A stretch of 64,000 nt of DNA from an uncultured SAR86 cluster bacterium. Lineage in GTDB: Bacteria; Pseudomonadota; Gammaproteobacteria; Magnimaribacterales; D2472. Under the pieces are notes generated by a model. The model did not search any database. It saw only the letters and a program-made list of their open reading frames with translations, and was not told the origin of the DNA. Shown here one piece after another: positions 8,650-59,332 of the stretch (position 1 is its first letter; each line of letters begins with the position of its first letter). The DNA is taken from contig CACJJI010000001.1 of the NCBI GenBank assembly GCA_902593675.1, positions 62,001 to 126,000 on the forward strand. The letters run 5' to 3'. Made by a program: the position numbers and the translations under genes.

Positions 8650-9414
8650 TTAAGTAACTTGCCCCCCATTCATTAGAAAGCTCTGACCTTTAAAAAAACT
8701 TGCGTGGTGGCTGCATAAAAAGCAGCAAGCTTTTGCAAATTCTTTAGGATTACCAAATCTACCAGCTGGAATTTTATTTAAAAGCTCTGATTCAATAATA
8801 TTTTTTTTTGATTCTGTTTGATCGTTTAGATATTGTTCAAGGCTATCTGTTAAAAAATAGCCTGGAAGAATTGAATTAATAGTAACGTTAGGAAATTCAT
8901 TTTTTTTAGCAATGCTTTTAATAAATCCTTCTAATGCAGTTCTTGACGCAGTAGATAATTCAAGGTTATTCATTGGATATAAAGTTGTCATACTTGAAAT
9001 ATTTAGAATTGAACCTAATTTTTTTTTGTTCATTTCAGGTAAAGCTAAATTTATAATTTTTATTACTGATACTAAATTGTTATTCAATGCATTTAACCAA
9101 TCTTTTTCATTCCATTGAATGAAATCTCCAGAAGCAGGGCTTGGAGTATGGGTAATTAGTACTTCAGTTTTTTTAATTTGATCTTCGAGTTGATTTATAT
9201 CATTAAAATTTGTTATATCAGCTTCATGGATTTTTAAATTCTTGTGAGATATATCACCATTAAGTTTTTTGAATAATCGCTCAATTTTTTTTATTGAAAG
9301 AGCTGTTGTATTAACTTGTGCATTTTCATTTAGAAATTCAATTACGCAGGCTGCTCCAAGGTCAGTATCTCCACTGCAAATAAATACTTTTTTATCTTTG
9401 AAATTTAGATTCAT
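8650..9414 (-). CDS. atypical SDR-family protein with degenerate active site
   Basis: This 254-residue protein has the short-chain dehydrogenase/reductase fold pattern: a glycine-rich start (SGDTDLGAA, a weak version of TGxxxGxG), NISS in the serine strand, and GGQVT at the C-terminus. The catalytic YxxxK reads STASR where aligned with the usual YSASK before ALEG, so both Tyr and Lys seem replaced. It may have a non-standard activity or only bind a nucleotide. It is convergent with the MFS gene, with one base between their stops, and lies downstream of the TonB receptor gene beyond a terminator. Confidence 0.75.
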   Translation of the reverse strand: MNLNFKDKKVFICSGDTDLGAACVIEFLNENAQVNTTALSIKKIERLFKKLNGDISHKNLKIHEADITNFNDINQLEDQIKKTEVLITHTPSPASGDFIQWNEKDWLNALNNNLVSVIKIINLALPEMNKKKLGSILNISSMTTLYPMNNLELSTASRTALEGFIKSIAKKNEFPNVTINSILPGYFLTDSLEQYLNDQTESKKNIIESELLNKIPAGRFGNPKEFAKACCFLCSHHASFFKGQSFLMNGGQVT

Positions 9415-9424
9415 TTATTTAAAA

Positions 9425-9451
9425 AAAAGGGGATCAATTTGATCCCCTTTT
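9425..9451 (-). terminator. intrinsic terminator after the TonB receptor gene
   Basis: There is a perfect 13-base inverted repeat (AAAAGGGGATCAA and its complement) with a one-base centre; in RNA the inner pairs would open to form the loop. Read on the minus strand it lies just past the receptor stop codon at 9469 and is followed by a T tract, as in a Rho-independent terminator. It separates the receptor gene from the SDR gene that starts at 9414. A-rich sequence on the other side could let it act in both directions. Confidence 0.85.
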
Positions 9452-48613: not shown

Positions 48614-49246
48614 ATGAAAATAGCTATTCTCGGTGGAACAGGCTCTTTGGGTAAGGGTCTAGGCTCAAGATGGATTAAGGCAGGTCATGAGATAATTATA
48701 GGGAGTCGTGATTTGTCAAAAGCTCAAGAAATAGCTGATCAACTAGGCCTTGATCATTCATCTGGTATGCTTAATATTGATGCTGCTAAATCTTGTGAAA
48801 TTGCTTGTTTAACAGTTCCATTTGCCAATCAAGAATCAACGCTCTTGAGCATAGAAAATGCTTTGCATAATAAAATTATGATCGATGCAACTGTTCCCCT
48901 TATGCCCCCTAAAGTAATGAGAGTTCAATTACCTGAAGGGGGGTCCGCAGCATTAAATGCCCAATCAATATTAGGGGAACATACAACCGTAGTATCAGCT
49001 TTTCAAAATATCTCAGCTGAATTACTTCAAACTGATGCAAAAATAGATTGTGATGTATTGGTTGCTGGAGACTTGATAGAGGCAAGAAATATAGTTATTG
49101 ATCTGGCATCAGATGCTGGTCTTACTGGATGGCATGCTGGACCATTATGCAATTCGGTTGCAGCAGAAGCCTTAACCTCAATACTTATTGCAATCAACAA
49201 AAAACATTCACTTGCACATTCAGGCATCAAAATTACAGGCCATTAA
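48614..49246 (+). CDS. fno: NADPH:F420 oxidoreductase (F420-dependent NADP reductase)
   Basis: The 210-residue protein has the N-terminal NADP motif ILGGTGSLGKGLG (4-16), the GSRD segment for the NADP phosphate, TVPF, DATVPLMPPK and AALNAQSI, all as in Fno/NpdG from archaea and actinobacteria. It passes hydride between NADPH and F420. I start it at 48614 because AGGAGA precedes that ATG and the Rossmann fold begins at once; the open frame upstream (to 48527) adds 29 residues of no family character. It is the first gene of an operon with CofE, CofD, CofC and FbiC, which supports the F420 call strongly. Confidence 0.9.
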   Translation: MKIAILGGTGSLGKGLGSRWIKAGHEIIIGSRDLSKAQEIADQLGLDHSSGMLNIDAAKSCEIACLTVPFANQESTLLSIENALHNKIMIDATVPLMPPKVMRVQLPEGGSAALNAQSILGEHTTVVSAFQNISAELLQTDAKIDCDVLVAGDLIEARNIVIDLASDAGLTGWHAGPLCNSVAAEALTSILIAINKKHSLAHSGIKITGH

Positions 49247-49261
49247 AAAAAGAGAAATATT

Positions 49262-50023
49262 ATTAGTTCTATCAACCTCATAGCATTAGAGACACTACCT
49301 CTTATCCAACCCGGACAAGATTTGTCTTTAGAAATTATTAAAGCCATAGAATCAGAAGCACTCCAGATTGATGATGGGGATGTGATAGCAGTTGCCCAAA
49401 AGATTGTTTCTAAGTCAGAAAACAGATATCTAGATATCACAGGGCTTATTCCATCAGATGAAGCAAAAACTTTAGCAACTAAAATTGATAAAGATCCAAA
49501 GTTCATTCAAGCCATTTTGAATGAATCGAAAAAGGTAGTGCGCTATAGAATGGGGGTGTTAATTGTTGAACATAAGTTAGGATTTATTCATGCAAATGCA
49601 GGAATTGATAGATCCAACATTGATCAATGCAAGGATATTGTCTTGCTGCTTCCAGAAAACCCTGATGAATCTGCAAAAAATATTTCAGAATCTATATCTC
49701 AACATTTTAAAAAAAATATTTCTATAATTATTACAGATACCATGGGAAGACCTTTCAGGAATGGGATAGTGGGTTTTACTATTGGCAGTCATAACATTGA
49801 ATGCCTTTTAGATGAACGAGGGAAAAAAGATCTTTATGATAACGAGTTAAGAGTAACTCAAATAGGTATTGCTGATGAATTAGCAGCAGCTTCGTCATTA
49901 TTGATGGGTCAAGCTGCGCAAAAAAAACCTGTTGTATTAATCAAAGGCTATCAATTTAAACAAAATAATATTAGCGACTCTCGATCTTTAATTAGAAGCG
50001 AAGAAGAGGATTTGTTTAGATGA
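49262..50023 (+). CDS. cofE: coenzyme F420-0:L-glutamate ligase CofE, likely ATT start
   Basis: The 253-residue protein matches CofE throughout: DGDVIAVAQKIVSKSE, HANAGIDRSN, IIITDTMGRPFRNGIVGFTIG and the terminal RSEEEDLFR. It adds glutamate to F420-0 using GTP. A conventional start is missing: the first ATG/GTG/TTG in frame is a TTG at 49322, but the sequence before it still reads as CofE (LIALETLPLIQPGQD, aligned with LPLIKxGDD of other CofE). The frame is open back only to the stop of the previous gene (49244-49246). ATT at 49262 (or 49259) with AAGAGA before it is the best candidate start. Confidence 0.88.
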   Translation: MSSINLIALETLPLIQPGQDLSLEIIKAIESEALQIDDGDVIAVAQKIVSKSENRYLDITGLIPSDEAKTLATKIDKDPKFIQAILNESKKVVRYRMGVLIVEHKLGFIHANAGIDRSNIDQCKDIVLLLPENPDESAKNISESISQHFKKNISIIITDTMGRPFRNGIVGFTIGSHNIECLLDERGKKDLYDNELRVTQIGIADELAAASSLLMGQAAQKKPVVLIKGYQFKQNNISDSRSLIRSEEEDLFR

Positions 50024-50949
50024 AAAATTATTTGTTGTTGTGTGGAGGGGTTGGTGGAGCTAAGCTTGCCTTGGGATTTAAAAATTCAATCGATCCAGAC
50101 AATTTAACCATTGCCGTCAATACCGGAGATGATTTTAATCATCTTGGTTTAAAAATTTGCCCTGATCTTGATACTGTGATGTATACCCTTGCAGGCGAAT
50201 CAGACACCTCAAAGGGATGGGGAAGAAAAGATGAATCATGGAATATGCTTGCTGCTTTGTCTGACATGGAGGGAGAGACATGGTTCCAACTTGGAGACAA
50301 AGATTTAGCCACTCACATTCAAAGAACATTTTTAATTAATTCTGGCCAATCTCTTACAGAAGCAACACACAATTTATGTGAATCATTCAATCTGCCAAAA
50401 TATCTTTTTCCAATGAGCAATCAATCTGTTGAAACTTATATACAAACAAAAAATAGGTTGCTTTCATTTCAAGAATATTTTGTTAAATTGAAATGCAAGC
50501 CACCTGTTACTGATTTTGTTTTCAAGGGACTTGATAAAGCAGATTTTAACAAAGACCTTGATTTATCAATTTATGATGAAATCATCATATGCCCATCAAA
50601 TCCCTATGTCAGCATTAATCCAATGCTCCAGTTGCCCAAACTAAAAAATTATTTAAAAGATTGTTCAGATAAAGTTACAACCATCAGTCCAATAGTTAAT
50701 GCTAAGTCATTAAAAGGACCAACAGCAAAGATGATGCAAGAACTAGGCCAAGAAGTAAGCGTAAAAACTATTGCTAAATTTTATAAGAATTATTCTAAAA
50801 GAATTTTCATAGATTCATCTGATATAAGTAAGCGCGATGAATTAAGTAAACTAGGATATGAGGTGCATGTAGCTGATTTAATTATGAACACTCTCGATAA
50901 AAAAAATGCACTTGCCAAGATAATCATTGATGAGCTTGAATCAAAATAA
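50020..50949 (+). CDS. cofD: CofD, 2-phospho-L-lactate transferase-type enzyme (F420-0 synthesis)
   Basis: The 309-residue protein begins LLCGGVGGAKLALG and has NTGDDFNHLGLKICPDLDTVMYTLAG and SFQEYFV, the hallmark segments of CofD/FbiA. It joins a phospholactate-type moiety from a GDP-activated donor to the FO chromophore to give F420-0. The substrate could be 2-phospholactate, phosphoenolpyruvate or 3-phosphoglycerate in different bacteria; I cannot tell which. Its ATG overlaps the CofE stop (ATGA), and the next gene follows without a gap, so translation is coupled along the operon. Confidence 0.92.
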   Translation: MKNYLLLCGGVGGAKLALGFKNSIDPDNLTIAVNTGDDFNHLGLKICPDLDTVMYTLAGESDTSKGWGRKDESWNMLAALSDMEGETWFQLGDKDLATHIQRTFLINSGQSLTEATHNLCESFNLPKYLFPMSNQSVETYIQTKNRLLSFQEYFVKLKCKPPVTDFVFKGLDKADFNKDLDLSIYDEIIICPSNPYVSINPMLQLPKLKNYLKDCSDKVTTISPIVNAKSLKGPTAKMMQELGQEVSVKTIAKFYKNYSKRIFIDSSDISKRDELSKLGYEVHVADLIMNTLDKKNALAKIIIDELESK

Positions 50950-51525
50950 ATGAATGTCTCTGCATTTATACCGATTAAAAAGTTTTCATCCTCAAAGAAT
51001 CGACTAGCAAATATTATTAGCTCAACTGAACGGGAAATTTTAGCTGCTTCAATGGCAAAAAAAACTATTGATACTTTACATAATTCTAAAATCTGTAAAT
51101 CAATAACAGTTGTTACAAATGACAGCAACTTACACTTAGATTACTCAACTTCATATTTTACAAACTCATCATTAAACGATGGCTTGAATGAAGCTATTTA
51201 TGCGCAAACAACTAATGATATTATTTTAATCATGCATGCAGATCTTCCTAAAATAAATGAAGGAGATCTTCACGAGTTAGCTCATTCATTTGATATGAAA
51301 AAAATTAGTATTATTTCTGATCTTTCGAAGCAGGGGACAAATTGTTTGATGTTTAATTCAACAATTTCCTTTGATCTAAAATTTGGATTCAATAGTTACA
51401 ATCTATTTATGCATGAATTTGAAAATAATGGATTAAACTATCAAGATATTTCCATTCAAAGCCTTCAAGATGACCTTGACTCCGAGGAAGATTACTTCAA
51501 ACTAATTAAATACGTTAATAGCTAG
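50950..51525 (+). CDS. cofC: CofC-type nucleotidyltransferase of F420 synthesis
   Basis: The 191-residue protein has the CofC/FbiD pattern: IPIKKFSSSKNRLANII near the N-terminus, VTNDS, and HADLPKINEGDL in the middle, like small MobA/IspD-fold guanylyltransferases. It activates the phospho-acid with GTP for CofD. It is somewhat short for the family but shows no obvious break. Its start abuts the CofD stop. Together with CofE, CofD and FbiC it makes the set of F420 synthesis genes complete. Confidence 0.85.
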   Translation: MNVSAFIPIKKFSSSKNRLANIISSTEREILAASMAKKTIDTLHNSKICKSITVVTNDSNLHLDYSTSYFTNSSLNDGLNEAIYAQTTNDIILIMHADLPKINEGDLHELAHSFDMKKISIISDLSKQGTNCLMFNSTISFDLKFGFNSYNLFMHEFENNGLNYQDISIQSLQDDLDSEEDYFKLIKYVNS

Positions 51526-51529
51526 ATCG

Positions 51530-53944
51530 TTGAAAATTCAAGAACAATCAAACCAAACCTTAAGGCAATTAATTGCTTCTGGATCAATTGAATTTTCTAA
51601 ATTACGTTCTTTGGCTAATATTTGTTTATCTGATACTTTAATAAAGGCTTCCTATGATAAGAAGACAGTACATTATAAAAACTTATTAAGTTATTCACCA
51701 AAGGTTTTCATCCCGTTAACATTTTTATGTCGTGATGTTTGTCATTACTGCACCTTTGCTCAAACTCCCAAGAAAGTTGAATCACCGTATTTATCAATTG
51801 AACAAGTTATCTCAATTGCTAAAGAGGGTGAGGCTAATGGCTGTCATGAAGCCTTATTTACTCTTGGTGATAAGCCTGAATTAAGATATAAAGCTGCAAG
51901 AGATTGGTTGTCAGAAAATGGTTATAGGACAACAAATGATTATTTGGCCGCATGCGCTGAAGCTGTATTAAATGAAACATCTTTAATACCTCATTTAAAT
52001 CCTGGTTGCTTAACTGCAGATGAAATTACTAAACTTAAACCCCTAAGCGGCTCTATGGGATTGATGGTTGAGTCTTTATCACCTCGGCTTACTGAAAAAG
52101 GTCAACCGCATTACGGATCTCCAGATAAAGATCCTATTTTCAGAATGAAGACGCTGGAAGAAGCCGGAAGACAAAAGGTTCCTTTTACAACTGGCATATT
52201 AATTGGAATTGGTGAAACAAGGTTGGAGCGATTAGAGTCATTGCACAAAATAGCTGAATTGCATTTTGCACATAATCATATTCAAGAAGTCATTGTGCAG
52301 AATTTTAGAGCAAAGCCTAATACATTGATGGCAAATGCTAGCGAACCATCATTTGATGAGCTTATGTGGACTATTGCGATGGCTAGATTGATCTTACCTG
52401 GTGACGTTAGTCTTCAGGTCCCACCAAATCTAAATTCAGATCACATTAATCAATTAGCTCAGTCTGGAATTAATGATTTTGGTGGAATATCTCCAGTTAC
52501 AAAGGATTATGTAAATCCTGAAGCGCCATGGCCTGAAATAGCCAAGCTTAATAAAATAATCTCAAGGTCAAAACAAACTTTAAAACCAAGAGCAACTTTG
52601 TATCCAAAGTATTTTACTGATCTTAAGTCTTTTTCAACGCCTAGAATATCTTCTAAACTTCTTCAAATAACTGATTCTCAATCTTTTATTCGGTCTGATC
52701 TTTGGAGATCGGGAATCAGCAATAAAATACCTTCATATCCAGAAGCTGTTTTTACTTCTAATATTCGACAGTCAATTAAGGATGTTGAAAATAATCCATC
52801 TATTGAGAATATCCAGTATCTATTAGAGACATCTGATAATGATTTTAAATATGTTACTGATTATGCCAATGATCTTAAATTACAACTTCATGGATCAGAT
52901 ATTACTTTTGTAGTTAACAGAAATATTAACTACACAAATATATGTTCTTTCAAGTGCAATTTTTGTGCTTTTTCTAAAGGCAGGGGTCATGATGACTTAA
53001 GAGGTAAGCCATATAATATTTCTCACGAAGAGATTATCCGAAGAACAAATGAAGCCATCGAAAGGGGTGCTACGGAAGTCTGTTTACAAGGCGGAATACA
53101 TCCAAAATATTCTGGTGAAACTTACCTTGATATTGTTAGGGCAATTAGATCAGCCTCATCATCAATTCATATTCATGCCTTTTCTCCTTTAGAAATTGAT
53201 CACGGTAGAAAAACTTTAAATATTTCTGTTAAAGAGTTTCTTGTAGAGTTAAAAAAAGCAGGTTTGAACTCACTTCCAGGAACGGCAGCAGAAATTTTGC
53301 ATGATGAAATAAGAGCAATTATTTGCCCTGATAAACTTACCTCCAAGCAATGGATTAACATCATTGAAACTTCGCACTCTGTAGGATTGCCTACAACATC
53401 TACCATGATGTTTGGACATGTGGAGAGAAATTCTCATGTTGCTCATCATTTATTGAAGCTTTTAAATCTTCAACAAAAAACAAATGGTATAACTGAATTT
53501 GTACCTTTGCCATTTGTTGCAGATGAGGCTCCTATATTTAGGCGGGGTCAAGCCAGACCAGGACCTACTTTTAAAGAAACAATTTTGGTTCATTCCGTTG
53601 CCAGAATTCTTTTCCAAGGTCAGATCAATAATATTCAGGGTTCTTGGGTTAAGATGGGCCTACCAGGGCTTAAATTTCTATTAACCTCTGGAATTAATGA
53701 TATCGGAGGAGTGTTGATGAATGAATCTATCACAAGATCTGCTGGCGCTTCTTTTGGTCAAGAACTTAGACTTGAAGAGGTAATAGGAATTGCCGATGAA
53801 TTAAAATTAAATTTACAGCAAAGAAATACATTGTACGATTCATTAAACAATAATCTTCGAGACTTAATTACTTTACAATCTATTCCTCTCATTCCTATTA
53901 AAAATGATTATCATCAACCTAAAAAATTAATTAACATCACATGA
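51530..53944 (+). CDS. fbiC: FO synthase FbiC (fused CofG-CofH radical SAM enzyme)
   Basis: The 804-residue protein is a fusion of two radical SAM domains. The first, CofG-like (about 1-370), has the cluster motif CRDVCHYC (CxxxCxxC); the second, CofH-like (about 395-795), has CSFKCNFC. The order and length are as in mycobacterial FbiC. It makes the deazaflavin FO from tyrosine and 5-amino-6-ribitylamino-uracil. The start is a TTG at 51530, 4 bases after the CofC stop. The stop overlaps the ATG of the following DUF1295 gene (ATGA). Confidence 0.95.
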   Translation: MKIQEQSNQTLRQLIASGSIEFSKLRSLANICLSDTLIKASYDKKTVHYKNLLSYSPKVFIPLTFLCRDVCHYCTFAQTPKKVESPYLSIEQVISIAKEGEANGCHEALFTLGDKPELRYKAARDWLSENGYRTTNDYLAACAEAVLNETSLIPHLNPGCLTADEITKLKPLSGSMGLMVESLSPRLTEKGQPHYGSPDKDPIFRMKTLEEAGRQKVPFTTGILIGIGETRLERLESLHKIAELHFAHNHIQEVIVQNFRAKPNTLMANASEPSFDELMWTIAMARLILPGDVSLQVPPNLNSDHINQLAQSGINDFGGISPVTKDYVNPEAPWPEIAKLNKIISRSKQTLKPRATLYPKYFTDLKSFSTPRISSKLLQITDSQSFIRSDLWRSGISNKIPSYPEAVFTSNIRQSIKDVENNPSIENIQYLLETSDNDFKYVTDYANDLKLQLHGSDITFVVNRNINYTNICSFKCNFCAFSKGRGHDDLRGKPYNISHEEIIRRTNEAIERGATEVCLQGGIHPKYSGETYLDIVRAIRSASSSIHIHAFSPLEIDHGRKTLNISVKEFLVELKKAGLNSLPGTAAEILHDEIRAIICPDKLTSKQWINIIETSHSVGLPTTSTMMFGHVERNSHVAHHLLKLLNLQQKTNGITEFVPLPFVADEAPIFRRGQARPGPTFKETILVHSVARILFQGQINNIQGSWVKMGLPGLKFLLTSGINDIGGVLMNESITRSAGASFGQELRLEEVIGIADELKLNLQQRNTLYDSLNNNLRDLITLQSIPLIPIKNDYHQPKKLINIT

Positions 53945-54823
53945 AAACAAAATTTTTACATCTATTAGTTATTTTAGCTGGGTACATAGCATGCATTTAT
54001 TCCATGCAGTTTACTTGGAACCTTTTTTCTGAATCATCTTTAATATTCAAAGTACTTATTTGCCACATTGAGGCTACAATTTTTTATATATTTTTTTTAA
54101 GTGTAATTTTCAATAATTCTAGCTGGTACGATGCTTTTTTGGTCAGTTATTCCCGTTGTCTTAACAATCATGTGTTGGGCAGATATCTCTGCAGCAGGTG
54201 ATGTTCAAAGGGCATTTTTAATGCATGCATGCTTATTGTTATGGGCTATCCGATTAACCTATAACTGGATAAGATCATGGGAAGGTTTCTCACATGAAGA
54301 TTGGCGATACATAATGATGAAAGGGAAAACAAAGAATAAATTTCAATACTTCATAGTAGATTTTGGTTCTATACATCTTATTCCAACACTTTGTGTTTAT
54401 ATGGCATTACTCCCAATGATTTATGCTCTTGCTTACTCTGGTAACGAATTAAACAATTTAGATATATTTGCAACTTTTTTGGCTGTAGCTGCAGTCATTA
54501 TTCAAATTGTCTCTGATCAGCAAATGTATAATTTTAGAAAAAATCTTTCTGAACCTAGAACTATGAAATCAGGCTTGTGGTATTACTCACGTCATCCAAA
54601 CTACTTTGGTGAAATATTGTTTTGGTTTAGCCTTTTTGTCTTTGCTTTGGCAGCTAATTATTCGTTTGCATGGCTTTTGATAGGTTCTTTAATTATGTAT
54701 GCTTTAATTGCTATTGCATCAGTTGCAATGATGGATAAACGTTCATTAGAAAGACGCCCAGATTTTAAGGAATATATGGATTCTACCCCAGCAATTTTTA
54801 TAAACATTTTTAAAAGGGGCTAA
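53941..54823 (+). pseudogene. DUF1295 membrane reductase-like gene with a frameshift
   Basis: Two overlapping frames together encode one DUF1295 protein of about 290 residues. The first ends NSSWYDA; the second continues FWSVIPVVLTIMCWAD, and joined they give the family's usual YDxxWSVxP. The second part contains SRHPNYFGEILFW. The join lies in a run of six T (54135-54140); five would restore the frame. It may be an inactive copy, a sequencing error, or a slippery site. The start overlaps the FbiC stop, so the intact gene would belong to the F420 operon. A related intact gene is at 25262-26044. Confidence 0.85.
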
Positions 54824-57622: not shown

Positions 57623-59332
57623 ATGAAATGGGATTATGAATTTGATGTTGTTGTAATTGGTTCTGGTAACGGAGCCTTAACATCTGCTTTGTGCAGCCAC
57701 GATGGTGGTGCAAAAACATTAGTTATAGAAAAAAGTACTCAATTTGGCGGAACCTCGGCTACCTCTGGTGGAGGTGTCTGGATACCTAATAACAGGTATG
57801 CAAAAGCTGAAAATGTCGATGACTCTGATCAAGATGCAAGAGACTACATAAATAGCGTTTCACCTGAGGGAAAAATTAAAGATGAGCTAGTTGAAACTTA
57901 TCTTTCTGAGGGCCCCAAAATGATTGATTATCTTCATGAAAATTCACAAGTTAAATATAGAAATTTACCTCATTATCCAGATTATTTTCCAGATAATCCT
58001 GGAGGAAAGGCAGGAAATAGATCCATGGAGCCTGAGCCCATAAAGGGAACCGATCTCGGAGATGACCTGGGTAAATTAAGAGAACAGCACCCACAAACTG
58101 CCTTTACCATGGGTCCAATAAATATGAATTTTACCCAAGTAGAGGGTCAGCTATTACTTGGAGCTTTGCCTGGCTGGAAATCTTTATTTGCAAAACTATT
58201 TACTAAATATATTTTAGATCTACCAATGAGGCTTAAATGGGGTTGGAAAGACAGACGATTAACAATGGGCAATGCAGGTGTTGCAAGATTAATCTTATCT
58301 TTAAAGGATAGGAACGTTGATTTATGGACAGAAACTGCAATGACGGATCTTATTGATGAAAATGGTTCGGTGATCGGAATTAAGGCTTCAAAAAACAATA
58401 TTGAAATTAATATTAAGGCTAATAAGGGGGTTATTCTTGCTTCCGGGGGATTTGAAAAAGATCAAGCTTTGAGAGATCAATATTTGCCTAAGCCAACAAA
58501 CATAGAGTGGAGTGCTGCTAATATTTATAATACAGGTGATGCATTAAAGGCTGCATTAAAATTAGGCGCTGATACTCATCAAATGGATACAGGTTGGTGG
58601 TCTACTGTAATGAAGGTGCCAGGACAAGACAAAGGCTGGCTATCAATGGTAGATAAATCAATGCCTGGAAATTTTACTGTCAATAAAAATGGTGAAAGAT
58701 TCTCCAATGAATCACAAAACTATGTCAGCTTTGTAAATGATATGTTTGATAAATACGCTGAGGGAAATCCTTGTGCTCCCTGTTACATGATTTTTGATAG
58801 TACATTTAGAAAAAATAGACCTTGTGGCCCACTTCTGCAGGCATCGATGCAACCTGATTCAGCTGTGCCAAAAGAGTGGTGGACCCCAACTTTCTTATCC
58901 AAGGGAGAAACCCTTGAAGAGCTAGCTGAAGTGGCGGGTATTAATGTTGATGGGCTTTTGGCAACTCAGGCAAAAGTTAATGAATATGCTGCCTCAGGTA
59001 AAGATCTTGATCTTCAACGTGGCGATAGTGTTTATGATAGATATTATGGCGATCCATCAGTGACACCAAATCCATGTCTTGCTCCATTAGAAACAGGACC
59101 TTTTTATTGTATGGTTTTGTATCCAGGCGAAATGGGTACAGCAGGCGGTCTAGTAATTGATACACACGCCAGAGTGTTGAACAAAGATGGTAAAGCTATA
59201 CCAGGGCTTTATGCATGCGGAAATTGCTCTACTGCATTGTTGCCAACTTATCCTGGTCCTGGTTCAACACTTGGCCCAGCGATGACTTTTGGTTATTTGG
59301 CTGCAAAAGATATTACCGGTTCAAATTTTTAA
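57623..59332 (+). CDS. 3-ketosteroid dehydrogenase-like FAD protein (KstD family)
   Basis: The 569-residue flavoprotein has the FAD motif GSGNGALTSAL (about 13-23), GGTSATSGGGVWIPNN, YPDYFPDNPGG and a C-terminal TYPGPGSTLGPAMTFGYLAA, the last matching KstD where Tyr and Gly form part of the active site. KstD enzymes desaturate ring A of 3-ketosteroids (delta-1 or, in relatives, delta-4). It is followed, with one shared base, by an SDR gene, then NTF2-like and ketosteroid isomerase genes. That context supports a steroid role, though relatives act on other enones. Confidence 0.88.
   Translation: MKWDYEFDVVVIGSGNGALTSALCSHDGGAKTLVIEKSTQFGGTSATSGGGVWIPNNRYAKAENVDDSDQDARDYINSVSPEGKIKDELVETYLSEGPKMIDYLHENSQVKYRNLPHYPDYFPDNPGGKAGNRSMEPEPIKGTDLGDDLGKLREQHPQTAFTMGPINMNFTQVEGQLLLGALPGWKSLFAKLFTKYILDLPMRLKWGWKDRRLTMGNAGVARLILSLKDRNVDLWTETAMTDLIDENGSVIGIKASKNNIEINIKANKGVILASGGFEKDQALRDQYLPKPTNIEWSAANIYNTGDALKAALKLGADTHQMDTGWWSTVMKVPGQDKGWLSMVDKSMPGNFTVNKNGERFSNESQNYVSFVNDMFDKYAEGNPCAPCYMIFDSTFRKNRPCGPLLQASMQPDSAVPKEWWTPTFLSKGETLEELAEVAGINVDGLLATQAKVNEYAASGKDLDLQRGDSVYDRYYGDPSVTPNPCLAPLETGPFYCMVLYPGEMGTAGGLVIDTHARVLNKDGKAIPGLYACGNCSTALLPTYPGPGSTLGPAMTFGYLAAKDITGSNF

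Follow-up and report, generated by a model that had tools for sequence, protein, structure and literature searches.

The F420 operon and its carriers

We analyzed a window of 64,000 nucleotides from an uncultured SAR86 bacterium (contig CACJJI010000001.1, assembly GCA_902593675.1), considering the genes for coenzyme F420 at positions 48614-53944 of the window and, among these, the start of cofE in particular. Family assignment was based on profile scores compared with curated cut-offs (NCBIfam TIGR models and Pfam). Five genes on the plus strand, namely fno, cofE, cofD, cofC and a fused fbiC, were confirmed in this order, as had been claimed in a preliminary description of the DNA, which spoke of an AT-rich, gammaproteobacterium-like genome with all of the F420 operon; the host is SAR86.

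The first gene, fno (npdG; 48614-49246), encodes an NADPH-dependent F420 reductase (TIGR01915, 186.9 bits with a cut-off of 149.8), the best solved relatives of which, 5n2i and 1jax, are F420:NADP oxidoreductases. For cofE (49262-50023), the predicted product is F420-0:L-glutamate ligase (TIGR01916, 267 bits, cut-off 180.65; solved structures 7uld/2phn, E-value 8e-47), present as a single domain with no FbiB-type reductase part. The product of cofD (50020-50949; TIGR01819, 272.8 bits, cut-off 257.45) has 3c3d and 6uvx (CofD/FbiA) as solved relatives. The guanylyltransferase gene cofC (50950-51525) scores 103.9 bits with TIGR03552, the cut-off of which is 105, and passes by Pfam (PF01983, 62.4 bits, cut-off 22), while its product matches solved CofC structures weakly. 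Finally, fbiC (51530-53944), starting with TTG, encodes a predicted fused CofG-CofH FO synthase, the CofG domain (482.7 bits, cut-off 213.35) and CofH domain (494 bits, cut-off 374.1) of which exceed the cut-offs of TIGR03550 and TIGR03551, although the protein falls narrowly under the full-length CofGH model (986.4 vs a cut-off of 1018). Both halves carry the radical SAM motif CxxxCxxC, as read on the translation. The biosynthesis set (CofC, CofD, CofE and CofG plus CofH) is thus complete by profile search, with CofC one bit short, and coding conservation between relatives is seen in all five genes. As judged by these profiles and alignments, the F420 operon is complete and real in the SAR86 genome.

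The genes are tightly spaced. CofE and CofD overlap by 4 bases, CofD and CofC abut, CofC and FbiC lie 4 bases apart and the FbiC stop is overlapped by the ATG of the next gene, encoding a DUF1295 protein. The overlaps at CofE/CofD and FbiC/DUF1295 had been listed correctly in the preliminary description, whereas its 15-base gap between Fno and CofE holds only if cofE starts at the ATT at 49262.

The assembly holding the window comprises 1.5 Mb and is 81% complete. FbiC was found at 15 loci, encoding proteins that are 70-96% identical, of which 14 belong to the SAR86 cluster (including SAR86E) and one is labelled as Proteobacteria only. To describe distribution, we used a family sample of 107 genomes in ten genera (26 of the window's own genus, 7 of the genus termed g6, 2 of g10 and 72 spread over seven further genera). 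The profile search detected CofD in 29 of these (26 over the cut-off), distributed over three genera (own genus 23/26, g6 4/7 and g10 2/2), and in no genome of the remaining seven (0/72). The order of the operon genes is identical in the three genera and the flanks are largely alike, with an SDR neighbour gene out of place in one g6 genome (G048). At a wider scale, CofD exceeds its cut-off in 14 of 369 genomes of an even sample of the class, and cofE does so in 4 of 398 genomes of a phylum sample, own genome included in both cases.

A CofD tree, which had been suggested as a means of tracing the donor, was built from 39 rows, including 12 chosen from the SAR86 rows. It places the SAR86 rows as one group (100/100), nested in a 19-row group with seven other gammaproteobacterial rows (96/88). 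Eight further gammaproteobacterial rows are found elsewhere, among alpha- and betaproteobacteria, while actinobacteria, Thermomicrobium, an archaeon and a few proteobacterial rows lie beyond a 98/95 branch. It should be considered that the root is arbitrary, that CofD is the one gene treed and that the SAR86 rows are unusual in amino-acid composition. A contig chimeric with an actinobacterial or other donor had been named as what would overturn the finding; as the operon occurs in three genera with largely similar flanks, and as CofD sits among proteobacterial rows, the sequences speak against a chimeric origin and against direct acquisition from an actinobacterium. Six stretches from six CofD-less genomes were compared as possible empty sites, where a DUF1295-family gene is present and the flanking order is absent, so gain of the operon is indistinguishable from loss.

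The start of cofE

The stretch from the Fno stop to the conserved CofE N-terminus contains no in-frame ATG, GTG or TTG. The cofE start could be read in 28 of the 29 CofD-bearing family genomes (own genus 22, g6 4 and g10 2; in L019 the contig begins inside cofE), and none of these 28 SAR86 copies has ATG, GTG or TTG at the expected place. What is found in all 28 is a conserved AUU, AUC or AUA codon (AUH) at ribosome-site spacing: some 6-7 nt upstream of the AUH codon (distances by eye) lies the end of a purine stretch, in most cases AAGAGA, or of GGA/GGAG. In the window, the predicted AUU start codon is located at 49262-49264 and the ribosome-site-like AAGAGA at 49250-49255, both on the plus strand. 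The preliminary description had called the gene itself correctly and overlooked the absence of an ordinary start codon.

In the own genus, the codon is ATT in 13 rows and ATC in nine (ATY), with positions 1 and 2 invariant, and it lies at varying distances (10-18 nt) past the Fno stop. The g6 rows have ATT 1-2 bases past the Fno stop and the g10 rows have ATA 2 bases past it, in both cases 6-7 bases after GGAG. Pairwise differences at the three codon positions in the own genus amount to 0.56/0.52/0.55 in the 15 codons before ATY and to 0.25/0.08/0.54 in the 21 codons after it, meaning that codon periodicity sets in at this codon. Neighbouring candidate starts in the own genus fail, as the preceding codon is AAG, CCT or ACT in three rows and two rows have GTT or CTT three codons further on.

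Two controls show how exceptional cofE is. The first considered 32 genes over the 64 kb of the window and six relatives, in clusters containing the window and at least 5 of the 7 genomes, with overlaps and shadow frames removed. Each of the 31 other genes has an ordinary start column common to at least 0.67 of its rows, compared with 0.29 for cofE, the sole gene for which the best ordinary start column falls under half. In the second control, the count of which leaves out two antisense shadow frames, all 13 other genes share an ordinary start column in 71-100% of rows, while for cofE the best such column covers 4 of 20 rows, and 13 of the 20 have none in range.

Outside SAR86, cofE ordinarily starts with an ordinary codon. 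The class sample, own genome excluded, holds 15 loci (14 genomes) with CofD over or near the cut-off, of which 11 show the cofE N-terminus (it is cut in L110, and no cofE was found in L104, L106 and L116); an ordinary start is present in 10 of these 11 gammaproteobacterial genes, as it is in all 11 plasmid-borne cofE genes fetched, from 57 matched records. In G371 (L107/L151), cofE also has no ordinary start, while its congener L152 has GTG. Of the three non-own cofE genes in the phylum sample, one has ATG near, one resembles a CofC-CofE fusion (by eye) and one is L132 (G596:C1:1229530), a CofE homologue with no ordinary start nearby, in which ATT follows GGAG and for which cofD was not found within the surrounding 3.7 kb; L132 and the G371 gene were treated as isolated cases. 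Among irregular loci are L131 (G653:C13), an apparent cofC-cofE fusion in one frame of 472 aa with the CofC part recognised by eye, and L135-L137 (G656:C156), where a cofE-like gene in several pieces, with three TGA within one, is probably a pseudogene.

Some observations weigh against an AUH start, and they are the basis of an alternative in which cofE starts at an ordinary codon elsewhere, either at a downstream TTG or ATG or at an upstream TTG inside fno, producing an N-terminus unlike that of known CofE. Downstream, in ten of the 22 own-genus rows TTG occupies one or two of codons +5, +11, +13 and +20 (+20 in five rows, that of the window included; +5, +11 or +13 in five further relatives), and all four g6 rows have ATG at +12. 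Upstream, six of the 28 rows contain TTG at -16 to -34 (one also with ATG at -42), located inside fno in another frame. In addition, AAGAGA, as found in the own genus, is a weak ribosome site. Nonetheless, no ordinary start is found between the previous in-frame stop and the AUH codon in 22 of the 28 rows, nor downstream to codon +21 in 14, nor over the whole range from that stop to +21 in 11, and no ordinary site is common to all rows. Moreover, the disputed stretch displays the coding periodicity described above, with none in the 15 codons before it, aligns with the N-terminus of solved CofE and contains a predicted strand at CofE residues 5-8, in a model of moderate quality (mean predicted local distance difference test score 64). 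We thus consider an ordinary start elsewhere to be unlikely. Translation of cofE most likely begins, as predicted from the alignments, at the AUU, AUC or AUA codon behind a ribosome site directly after fno, a kind of start that is very rare in bacteria. This conserved AUH start is the new element of the locus, the enzymes of the operon being of known kinds.

Candidate F420 users and the form of the cofactor

No luciferase-like (LLHT), Ddn-type or PF01243 gene was found in the window, in agreement with the earlier statement that no F420-using enzyme lies near the operon; matches to all three in the own genome lie outside the window. A reductase elsewhere had been proposed as the user, and our search of the genome for LLHT and FDOR families yielded candidates of both LLHT and Ddn type. 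PF00296 (luciferase-like) is present in 35 of the 107 family genomes, comprising every genome of the own genus (26/26), g6 (7/7) and g10 (2/2) and no genome outside these three genera (0/72). The own genome contains four copies, two of which exceed the cut-off of TIGR03617 (396.6 and 431.1, cut-off 278.15) and one that of TIGR03619 (193, cut-off 166.9), both being families named F420-dependent. PF04075 (Ddn-type, FDOR-A, a family of F420H2-dependent enzymes) is found in 22 of the 107 genomes (own genus 16/26, g6 6/7, none elsewhere), and the own homologue scores 117.8-118.3 bits (cut-off 22) and is similar to solved Ddn proteins (3r5z, E-value 1.5e-27). For the two LLHTs and the Ddn homologue that were searched, PDB matches are mostly F420 enzymes. 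PF01243 (the PNPOx/FDOR-B side) was rejected as an informative marker, as it gives mostly weak matches in 81 of the 107 genomes and nine of the ten genera.

The surroundings of these genes differ. The fourth luciferase-like gene is part of a steroid-type ring-cleavage cluster with a KshA-type oxygenase (PF19298), a Rieske protein, a P450, a 4-hydroxy-2-oxovalerate aldolase and an acetaldehyde dehydrogenase, these last two over their cut-offs, together with a hydratase and an HsaD-like hydrolase, both below theirs. The preliminary description had placed the operon between steroid/isoprenoid-type catabolic clusters, and a steroid-type gene is indeed present downstream in the window, namely that of a KstD-like flavin adenine dinucleotide (FAD) dehydrogenase at 57623-59332 on the plus strand, although its score as 3-oxosteroid 1-dehydrogenase (529 bits) is below the cut-off of 788. 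Steroid catabolism genes of SAR86 have been reported before, in a paper that leaves F420 unmentioned in the part of its text available (PMC4810484). The Ddn-type gene (L076:8140-8595) abuts an ABC-transporter/MacB-like cluster (transporter names by eye), an unexpected neighbour. In genome G036 (L082, G036:C2:84000-101000, about 9171-9432), cofC is followed by the DUF1295 gene with no fbiC in between; the genome nevertheless gives eight luciferase-like matches and four to PF04075, two of these strong.

The LLHTs and the Ddn-type reductase likely use F420, as suggested by these family assignments and by their co-occurrence with CofD at the genus level, yet several points count against this and should be considered. 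The fourth LLHT falls below every F420 subfamily cut-off (89.4 vs 166.9), and assignment of LLHTs by family name leaves the use of F420 over flavin mononucleotide (FMN) unproven. CofD was not found in six of the 35 LLHT-bearing genomes; in two of them CofH lies close to the end of a contig, and the other four, 59-81% complete, are without CofH over the cut-off. As the three genera may form one clade, their shared presence pattern may reflect one evolutionary event, and the link between CofD and the LLHTs is therefore supported rather than proven.

These same doubts, namely F420 dependence given by family name and G036 without fbiC at its operon, would fit a vestigial operon, or one making FO just as a light-antenna pigment, with the LLHTs using FMN. 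We find this quite improbable, as CofC, CofD and CofE would be superfluous for FO, as none of the 72 genomes in CofD-less genera has PF04075 or LLHTs and as all five genes display coding conservation between relatives.

Which form of F420 would be made can be partly read from CofC, in which metal and substrate residues are kept. Of 12 SAR86 rows tried (L010 and L080 were not extractable), all 10 that were read have Gly, rather than Ser/Thr, at the position of Mrhiz-CofC S162, where Ser/Thr marks the use of 3-phosphoglycerate (3-PG), according to the portion of text available (PMC8764529). The 3-PG route was accordingly rejected, and the Gly points to phosphoenolpyruvate or 2-phospholactate. 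Weighing against a complete pathway, none of the 107 genomes has an FbiB-type reductase of dehydro-F420 over the TIGR03553 cut-off (51 have weak matches), and an unrelated reductase may stand in for it. With neither a CofE-fused nor an FbiB-type reductase, then, either 2-phospholactate would be used, another reductase would act or dehydro-F420 would remain.

The DUF1295 gene (53941-54823, plus strand; PF06966, 139.2 bits) had been considered a possible partner of the cofactor. This reading was rejected, as PF06966 occurs in 105 of the 107 genomes, with or without CofD, and is not F420-specific. Between 53941 and 56064, the assembly shows frame breaks, located in homopolymer runs, in this gene and in the M20 peptidase gene behind it; the sequence is different in the two relatives that were aligned at these places, while other relatives keep both frames open. 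Given the homopolymer runs and the open frames in relatives, the breaks are likely sequencing errors.

Proposed explanation and comparison with known systems

We consider it probable that part of the SAR86 family has kept an F420 operon, that the cofactor is made and is used by enzymes encoded elsewhere in the genome, and that cofE is translated from an AUH start. According to this scheme, FbiC would make FO, CofC and CofD would attach the phospho-side chain, CofE would add glutamates and Fno would charge F420 with NADPH. The resulting F420H2 would be used by LLHTs and the Ddn-type reductase, one of them encoded in the steroid-type ring-cleavage cluster. Initiation of cofE at AUU, AUC or AUA would yield CofE at a low level or coupled to Fno translation, as expected by analogy with AUU and AUA starts elsewhere, which are weak; a scarcity of CofE might in turn restrict the supply of F420 or make its glutamate tail shorter. 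A more specific proposal, in which an AUU/AUC/AUA start coupled to fno holds cofE at low, IF3-discriminated translation and so sets the amount of F420 or its tail length, is offered tentatively and is more doubtful. That CofE is instead made as an Fno-CofE fusion through stop read-through or frameshift is highly unlikely and cannot be a general rule, since, although in the window CofE shares the frame of the Fno stop and no second stop intervenes, the relation of the two frames changes from genome to genome (own-genus gap 10-18 nt) and, in seven rows (L006-L009, L011, L013 and L098), a stop in the CofE frame occurs 2-5 codons ahead of the start.

SAR86 bacteria are abundant in the surface ocean and uncultured. 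If the explanation is true, part of this group makes and uses F420, which would bring the cofactor into carbon turnover in the sunlit ocean, perhaps linked to steroid-like substrates, and cofE would join infC and pcnB among the few natural genes with a conserved AUH start. Gene finders restricted to ATG, GTG and TTG would be expected to miss or shorten cofE. The literature searched yielded no account of F420 in SAR86 (one may exist in the SAR86 genome publication of 2012 or in the F420 survey of 2017) and no publication on SAR86 with deazaflavin or luciferase-like enzymes. In the text of a 2021 F420 review, which is separate from its organism table, the word gammaproteobacteria is absent (PMC8498797).

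The closest known operons are those on plasmids of Paraburkholderia sp. PGU19 and Croceicoccus marinus, which encode the same enzymes in the same npdG-cofE-cofD-cofC order. In contrast to these proteobacterial plasmids, the SAR86 operon lies on a 385 kb contig of a 1.5 Mb genome, and its cofE is without an ordinary start. The 3PG-F420 system of Mycetohabitans, as described in the parts of the sources available, is like that of SAR86 in that CofE is encoded separately and carries no fused reductase (PMC11104420) and unlike it in that SAR86 CofC has Gly at the diagnostic position (PMC8764529). As for the start codon, the available portions of two papers state that AUU starts in E. coli are limited to infC and pcnB (PMC9410913) and that the AUU/AUA starts of infC, cvfC1 and ccpN in S. 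aureus give about 10% of the AUG level, or as much as 30% in rich medium in the case of ccpN (PMC13009471). As described there, these genes share with SAR86 cofE a conserved AUU or AUA behind a ribosome site. They differ in that the ribosome site of cofE is weak in the own genus and its start is predicted from sequence and, further, in that cofE is a cofactor gene within an operon and has AUU, AUC or AUA as its putative start, depending on the genome.

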